A stretch of 64,000 nt of DNA from Sphingomicrobium arenosum. Lineage in GTDB: Bacteria; Pseudomonadota; Alphaproteobacteria; Sphingomonadales; Sphingomonadaceae. The DNA lies in contig NZ_JANPVN010000001.1 of NCBI RefSeq assembly GCF_026157085.1, positions 434,001-498,000 on the forward strand. Direction: 5' to 3'. Both the position numbers and the translations under genes were made by a program. Position 1 is the stretch's first letter, and every line of letters begins with the position of its first letter. Positions 51,709 through 51,861 of the stretch are shown piece after piece. A model generated the notes under the pieces. That model saw only the letters and a program-made list of their open reading frames with translations. It did not search any database and was not told where the DNA came from.

Positions 51709-51861
51709 GAGTCTTTGGAGTCACACCACAAGGGGTTGAGTCCCATCGATTCCGCCGGACTCAAGATGTTGTGGTTAAGGGGTGCGTGAGTCCTTTTGAC
51801 AGACTTGCGCGTTAAAAGCCTGATTCCCCGCCGAATCTTGACCGCGAATCATGGTTGATTC
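51709..51861 (+). promoter_or_regulatory. ccrM: Cluster of ten GANTC methylation sites in the ccrM promoter region
   Basis: GANTC starts at 51709, 51718, 51738, 51748, 51758, 51788, 51822, 51833, 51846 and 51857. At one site per 256 bp by chance, fewer than one would be expected in 153 bp. The first six are spaced 9, 20, 10, 10 and 30 bp apart, close to whole helical turns. TTGACA at 51796-51801 looks like a -35 box, and the seventh site overlaps its -10 position. The downstream gene encodes the methyltransferase for this very site. Confidence 0.8.

Follow-up and report, generated by a model that had tools for sequence, protein, structure and literature searches.

A probable composite ccrM promoter with a predicted, GANTC-tagged NrdR operator in Sphingomonadaceae

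The dense array of GANTC sites in front of the CcrM methyltransferase gene in the window (the whole 64-kb stretch of DNA analyzed here) is likely to be a composite ccrM promoter, in which an operator tagged with GANTC sites would place ccrM in the regulon of NrdR, a sensor of dATP/ATP, usually 62-63 bp upstream of a methylation promoter of the GcrA type. This reading draws on the comparison of ccrM and nrdA upstream regions, and on genomes in which NrdR was not found. The features on which the argument turns are as follows (a strand is given where one applies).

51114..51698, + strand: rnhB (ribonuclease HII), the upstream neighbor; open reading frame matching the NCBIfam/Pfam RNase HII models
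51709..51713: GANTC site A1, which site B follows after 29 bp, with the same offset in 66 of 79 relatives that have a box pair of 33-bp period
51718..51722: GANTC site A2, less conserved (21 of 79 relatives)
51726..51741: predicted NrdR box 1 (CCACAAGGGGTTGAGT), 14.6 bits with the nrdA-only matrix; C4 and G13 present
51738..51742: GANTC site B, which begins at the conserved G13 of NrdR box 1 and overlaps that box at its inner end (73 of 79 relatives)
51748..51752: GANTC site C, inside the 17-bp spacer between the NrdR boxes; variable
51758..51762: GANTC site D, which ends on the conserved C4 of NrdR box 2 and overlaps that box at its inner end (68 of 79 relatives)
51759..51774: predicted NrdR box 2 (ACTCAAGATGTTGTGG), 19.3 bits with the nrdA-only matrix
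51788..51800, + strand: element E (GAGTCCTTTTGAC; GATTCCTTTTGTTC in many relatives), defined from the alignment and including GANTC site E
51822..51837: GANTC sites F and G, with starts separated by 11 bp, present in the closer relatives of the alignment
51838..51843, + strand: conserved -35-like hexamer TTGACC, the start of the core TTGAC-N3-GANTC-N6-GANTCA (51838-51862)
51846..51861: GANTC sites H and I, at an 11-bp interval within the presumed -35/-10 spacer
51861..51866, + strand: candidate -10, CAGGGG, weak, 17 bp after TTGACC
51895..53052, + strand: ccrM, GANTC adenine methyltransferase; best NCBIfam model NF050803 CcrM, Pfam N6_N4_Mtase and RAMA

The GANTC array upstream of ccrM

The ccrM product scores 619.5 bits over the full length of NF050803, which is under that model's cut-off of 830, and it is 92% identical to the CcrM of S. 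astaxanthinifaciens, in keeping with a Sphingomicrobium-like organism of the Sphingomonadaceae. Elsewhere in the window, a single 417-residue open reading frame (49540-50793, + strand) encodes a phosphomethylpyrimidine kinase domain (PF08543) followed, at the C-terminus, by a glyoxalase/VOC domain (PF00903).

The ten GANTC sites that the initial annotation had placed between 51709 and 51861 are all present (read directly from the letters, they start at 51709, 51718, 51738, 51748, 51758, 51788, 51822, 51833, 51846 and 51857), and its intervals of 9, 20, 10, 10 and 30 bp between the first six starts are correct. For 153 bp, dinucleotide shuffles predict 0.80 sites, the site frequency in a 400-kb sample of the genome predicts 0.13, and that of the window itself predicts 0.10. 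GANTC is scarce over the whole window, which has 41 sites as compared with 333 in dinucleotide shuffles, so the 153 bp of the array hold a quarter of the window's sites. GANTC is also the rarest of eight palindromes of the same form in the 400-kb sample (338 occurrences, with CTNAG near it at 359); scarcity of GANTC over the genome, together with a preference for intergenic positions, is a known bias (PMC3973325). The next-densest cluster in the sample and the window together has five sites in 104 bp, in the ftsA-ftsZ gap (L241:9687-9790; genes named by eye), and the ftsZ-ftsA promoter is methylation-responsive in Caulobacter (PMC8116508).

The array has counterparts across the order. We counted GANTC in 118 Sphingomonadales upstream stretches (117 of them distinct), each comprising the 300 bp before the CcrM match, which does not always begin at the start codon; 97 come from the family Sphingomonadaceae and 21 from seven other families (f2-f8). 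The count, which had been proposed as a check on the array, gave 745 GANTC sites, as compared with 51-164 for each of seven control palindromes made of the same letters, indicating clear enrichment and bearing out the view that the array is a conserved regulatory region of ccrM across Sphingomonadales. Individual regions hold from 2 to 11 sites, which puts the ten sites of the window at the upper end of the range. For comparison, Sphingomonadales ctrA promoters carry one to five GANTC per 300 bp (PMC8116508), and the Rhizobiaceae ccrM regions among the loci compared carry none to two per 250 bp. An alignment of 30 congeneric regions shows conservation that extends well past the GANTC sites themselves, the array being modular.

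Upstream of ccrM in four Rhizobiaceae loci (L021, L022, L028 and L030) there are few or no GANTC sites and, by eye, recurring GGTAACCAT-like motifs, which suggest a different kind of control. In a distant alphaproteobacterial group (L054, L064-L066, L068, L071 and L078) six or seven GANTC sites precede ccrM at spacings of about 9, 20, 10, 14-15 and 9-10 bp, partly within the 3' end of rnhB by our reading. One further ccrM match (L288, in genome G313) is interrupted near its start by an in-frame TGA, and the 300 bp that precede it contain 13 GANTC sites.

The proposal that the sites lie on one face of the helix holds in part. The first six recur with a regular period close to 10 bp (mean vector length R of 0.97 at 10.0 bp; best period 9.9 bp; period-scan p of 0.0002), but at the usual 10.5 bp their phasing falls short of significance (R of 0.63, p of about 0.09), and the ten sites together are not clearly phased (R of 0.53 at 10.5 bp, p of about 0.06; period-scan p of 0.16). 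The 20-bp interval between sites B and D follows from the geometry of the NrdR box pair described below.

The predicted NrdR operator

To avoid circularity, the matrix used to search for NrdR sites was built only from nrdA promoters (46 boxes from 23 congeneric promoters, with periods of 31-32 bp); the training boxes were chosen by a presupposed consensus, one of the 23 training pairs (L117) seems to be mis-registered, and the 30 large-subunit loci included seven, class II-like or fragmentary, that did not enter the training. Scored in this way, the box pair upstream of ccrM reaches 33.9 bits and is the best in the 64-kb window, where the next independent pair scores 11.4. In the 400-kb sample only the genome's own nrdA pair is comparable, at 31.1 bits (below the ccrM pair), and the next place scores 17.6.

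The pair recurs throughout the family. After removal of one exact duplicate (L157/L218), 90 of 96 distinct Sphingomonadaceae regions, representing 38 of 43 genera, have a pair that beats 200 of 200 shuffles; 47 of the 96 come from the window's own genus, so these region counts are not independent. Genera beyond it are mostly represented by one genome each, among the matches listed, and five of a set of 35 genomes yielded no locus and were left out. When the search is confined to the gap after rnhB (41 regions, because the end of rnhB was unrecognized in 56 of 117 sequences and some gaps were shortened), 32 regions beat 200 of 200 shuffles and 36 are equaled by at most 2 of 200. In 79 of the 90 passing regions the boxes have a period of 33 bp, that is, a 17-bp spacer, and C4 and G13 are present in both boxes in 78 of these 79. 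A 17-bp spacer belongs to the shorter of the two NrdR spacer classes, one of about 14-17 bp, or three turns, and the other of 24-27 bp; binding to boxes 14-17 bp apart is reported for four NrdRs (PMC12051234). In the cryo-EM structure the conserved G-C pairs of the NrdR boxes lie near D15 and R17, which are DNA-reading residues (PMC9110341); the genome of the window encodes an NrdR that matches the solved NrdRs and has both residues.

Outside the Sphingomonadaceae the picture is different. None of 20 rnhB-ccrM gaps in families f2-f8 has an NrdR pair better than shuffles. Matrix 'pairs' that appeared 32 bp apart in 330-bp upstream stretches of these families are, by our reading, rnhB coding sequence (NAGYG...ALKLV) and were thus not counted as NrdR sites. 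Upstream of ccrM in six Rhodobacterales loci (L008, L009, L011, L017, L024 and L076) the 3' end of rnhB contains a single NrdR-like palindrome (ACACAATATCTTGTGT in L024), and inspection by eye revealed no second box in any of the six; the palindrome may reflect a coding constraint or an older link to NrdR.

Two of the GANTC sites touch the boxes themselves. In 64 of 79 ccrM regions GANTC is present at both B and D, whereas at nrdA a GANTC overlaps none of the 46 boxes in the window's own genus. Four of nine nrdA loci of other genera do have a GANTC that overlaps box 1 in its outer part, so an overlap of GANTC and NrdR box is characteristic of ccrM and not unique to it. In 6 of 23 congeneric nrdA promoters (L114, L115, L116, L117, L119 and L132, the window's own genome included) a GACTC abuts or overlaps a conserved CTTGCG/CTTGTG upstream of NrdR box 1. 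The placement of B and D on the inner ends of both boxes is the basis on which we propose methylation gating: methylation of B and D, which touch base pairs read by NrdR, may quite possibly alter the affinity of NrdR for the operator.

If NrdR acts at ccrM, the operator might be expected to share the fate of its repressor, and the distribution of NrdR across the family bears on this point. A survey with TIGR00244 of 397 Sphingomonadaceae genomes that are at least 95% complete did not find NrdR in 11 of them (two of g30, eight of g73 and one of g81). The ccrM regions of 10 of these 11 lack the box pair (24 to 198 of 200 shuffles score as well), and the same ten also lack the pair at nrdA (23 to 175 of 200), where one fixed 520-bp stretch was examined per locus. 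By comparison, all 15 NrdR-positive comparison genomes carry the ccrM pair (at most 2 of 200 shuffles as good), including an NrdR-positive genome of g73 (G452), and the nrdA pair is present in all seven genomes examined there whose NrdR had been confirmed (at most 1 of 200; an eighth, G287, is left aside). The genomes with neither a detectable NrdR nor nrdA boxes are G293, G337, G376, G410, G433, G465, G476 and G488 (g73) and G204 and G341 (g30). The exception, G301, keeps both pairs (30.3 bits at nrdA and 29.0 at ccrM), and its nrdR may be absent from a fragmented assembly of 380 contigs. As read from the sequences, the core promoter is kept in all 11 genomes (in G301 with N4/N5 spacing).

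Absence of NrdR maps to three changes on a tree of 45 CcrM sequences (this being the tree of CcrM, not that of the species), also when well-supported branches alone are considered, and g30, g73 and g81 are separate on it. The simplest account of these patterns would be that operator and repressor were lost together twice, in two lineages. The correspondence has exceptions in the other direction: five genomes with NrdR fail the 200-of-200 test at ccrM (G284, G148 and G163 with 1, 2 and 1 of 200 shuffles as good, G229 with 97 and G182 with 31), and in G229 and G182 the ccrM pair is clearly absent although NrdR is present. NrdR presence was checked one by one for part of the genomes behind the 96 regions. 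The absence of the operator in 10 of 11 genomes in which NrdR is missing makes dNTP supply a likely input to ccrM.

The predicted core promoter and readings of the array

Downstream of the operator, a core of the exact form TTGAC-N3-GANTC-N6-GANTCA is found in 43 of 47 congeneric regions. A tolerant version of the pattern matches 74 of the 97 Sphingomonadaceae regions and 15 of the 21 from the rest of the order, with a total length of 25 in 86 of these 89, and by eye the block is also visible in Rhodobacterales loci. The initial annotation had instead pointed to a TTGACA promoter (51796-51801) with a GANTC on its -10; TTGACA occurs there in only 1 of 47 congeneric regions, the window's own, and the conserved -35-like hexamer is TTGACC. 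At position 6 of the candidate -10, T is found in 74% of 86 aligned cores and G in the window's genome (positions 1-2 are fixed by the core search pattern). A consensus scan of 51500-52100 returned no sigma70-type promoter, and the conserved core likewise fails that scan's rule; given this and the weak -10, the core promoter is inferred from its conservation.

The best reading of the core is that of a GcrA-type methylation promoter, with two CcrM sites where the -35/-10 spacer would be. In Caulobacter, GANTC in the -35/-10 spacer marks promoters fired at 40-60 min (PMC4287350), and GcrA footprints the ctrA P1 promoter, which has a spacer GANTC, in a methylation-dependent manner (PMC3667746). 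GcrA is encoded in the genome of the window (PF07750, 125.2 bits). The earlier suggestion of a link between ccrM, methylation and GcrA is thus consistent with what is found, namely a GcrA gene and a GANTC pair in the apparent spacer of a conserved promoter.

Operator and core are held at a nearly constant distance. From the end of box 2 to TTGAC there are 62-63 bp in 53 of 61 regions, 61 bp in three and 51-52 bp in five (in the window's genome the operator ends 63 bp upstream of TTGACC), and because the two distance classes are one helical turn apart, the operator and the core seem to keep a common face. Between them lies element E, and in line with its GANTC site the commonest offset of a GANTC upstream of TTGAC in the same 61 regions is 49 bp (27 regions), with 50 bp in a further five. 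NrdR boxes often overlap the polymerase site (PMC9110341); an operator 63 bp upstream of the -35-like hexamer counts against simple repression, and an upstream promoter not yet seen or an activating role is possible.

The mechanism that we propose would run as follows. In S phase the drawdown of dNTPs would cause NrdR to leave its operator, after which the core promoter would fire as read by GcrA-sigma70 according to the methylation of its GANTC sites, so that CcrM would be produced in step with DNA synthesis, as ribonucleotide reductase (RNR) is. Repression before release might be exerted by NrdR bending the DNA and so impeding GcrA or polymerase, by interference with factors at element E, or at an upstream promoter yet to be mapped. 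Were methylation of B and D to change NrdR affinity, a feedback loop would be closed from the product, CcrM, to the NrdR operator. In such a methylation-gated operator, which we advance as a tentative extension, slightly less likely than not, CcrM would methylate both half-sites and NrdR would read dATP/ATP and the local methylation (replication) state together.

A narrower version of this model, which we regard as possible, keeps ccrM as an NrdR target and supposes that GANTC in the boxes suits NrdR or CcrM capture, with methylation leaving NrdR binding unchanged. Box 2 of the relatives' nrdA often has CTCAA at its inner end, indicating that part of GACTCAA is natural NrdR sequence, and the contact of GANTC with nrdA box 1 in four of the nine loci from other genera points in the same direction. 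Against it, the inner end of box 1 is GAGTC at ccrM and mostly GTGT/GTAG at nrdA in the window's own genus, and B and D are both GANTC in most ccrM regions (the 64 of 79 above). In the original proposal GcrA or CcrM would read the ten GANTC sites together and in this way count fork passages or gauge the dosage of CcrM, which would make the array a pure methylation sensor and the NrdR-like repeats incidental. Of this multi-site sensor the conserved ccrM regulatory region, GcrA and the conserved GANTC pair of the core are supported; a pure counter read by helical phase is not supported as stated, with an NrdR operator predicted upstream. The order-wide enrichment favors such a counter, there being still 3-8 gap sites in the 20 regions of other families that lack an NrdR pair, and so does the regularity of the first six sites. 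We nevertheless consider it unlikely, because the B-D interval is set by the box pair, the pair is gone where NrdR is gone while the core is retained, the number of sites and several positions differ among relatives, and the ten sites together are not significantly phased.

Two other readings have far less to commend them. If the inverted repeat were a leader hairpin or attenuator of the ccrM mRNA, one would expect it to fold and covary as RNA; the strand does fold somewhat better than shuffles (z of -2.3; 4 of 200 as good) and paired double changes occur in some columns (up to 11 of 79 in the boxes), but at the inner columns of the boxes mismatched pairs (19-48 of 79) are commoner than double changes and only 39-76% are pairable, the near-invariant columns are the bases that NrdR reads, and the repeat lies upstream of the conserved core promoter. 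We regard this reading as extremely improbable. An Rfam search of 51400-52200 for a hairpin or riboswitch gave no match over the repeat, its two sub-threshold matches (E up to 1) both lying within rnhB on the other strand, and covariation was likewise unfavorable. SeqA binds clusters of GATC, which offers an analogy for regularly spaced GANTC sites, and to our knowledge no GANTC-specific SeqA has been described. A replication origin, or a SeqA-like sequestration cluster acting on hemimethylated GANTC, would agree with the even spacing of B, C and D and with the presence inside the array (51770-51778) of one of the window's four near-matches to the DnaA box, but it is very unlikely given that the array travels with ccrM across genomes. 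As a candidate oriC or DnaA cluster the stretch was rejected, such near-matches being fewer in the window than in shuffles (4 versus 8.4).

Relation to known control systems

A search of open-license papers returned no title linking NrdR to ccrM or GANTC; supplements and RegPrecise were beyond its scope, so a database prediction may exist. The main text and the NrdR passages of a reconstruction of NrdR regulons make no mention of a methyltransferase (PMC5343134), and NrdR is described as a repressor specific to RNR (PMC9110341). Control of ccrM has otherwise been ascribed to CtrA and the cell-cycle circuit. If the operator is what it appears to be, its conservation at ccrM would tie dNTP supply directly to epigenetic cell-cycle control in one bacterial family, and it could account in part for the coordination of methylation with replication in bacteria for which CtrA is dispensable, such as Sphingomonas melonis (PMC8116508). 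If gating is also true, then cells would match methyltransferase dosage both to dNTP supply and to fork passage. The system offers precise sites for study: two GANTC in one operator, a nearly fixed register of operator and promoter, and natural NrdR-minus genera.

The predicted operator resembles the NrdR operators of RNR promoters in its two 16-bp boxes with C4 and G13, in box centers about three helical turns apart, in its recognition by a matrix derived from nrdA, and in being absent, in 10 of 11 genomes, where NrdR is absent. It differs from them in that the target is a DNA methyltransferase gene, not RNR, in its spacer (17 bp, as compared with 15-16 bp at nrdA in the same genus), in the GANTC at both inner ends, and in its position 62-63 bp upstream of a conserved -35-like element. 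The core, in turn, resembles the GcrA/CcrM promoters of Caulobacter (ctrA P1, mipZ and podJ), which have a GANTC between the -35 and -10 of a sigma70-type promoter (a predicted one here) in an organism that encodes both GcrA and CcrM; unlike those, it has two sites 11 bp apart, an NrdR operator and up to 11 GANTC per 300 bp. The ccrM promoter of Caulobacter crescentus controls the orthologous gene but is activated by CtrA (PMC2877005), in contrast to the predicted NrdR operator of Sphingomonadaceae.

In E. coli, switches that combine methylation with a regulator are formed by Dam with Lrp at pap and with OxyR at agn43. The logic proposed here would be analogous, with methylatable sites within operator half-sites, and would differ in having a nucleotide sensor as its regulator and the methyltransferase itself as its output. 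The ccrM promoter of the Sphingomonadaceae is most likely GANTC-tagged and under NrdR control, which would join two familiar kinds of control in a new way.
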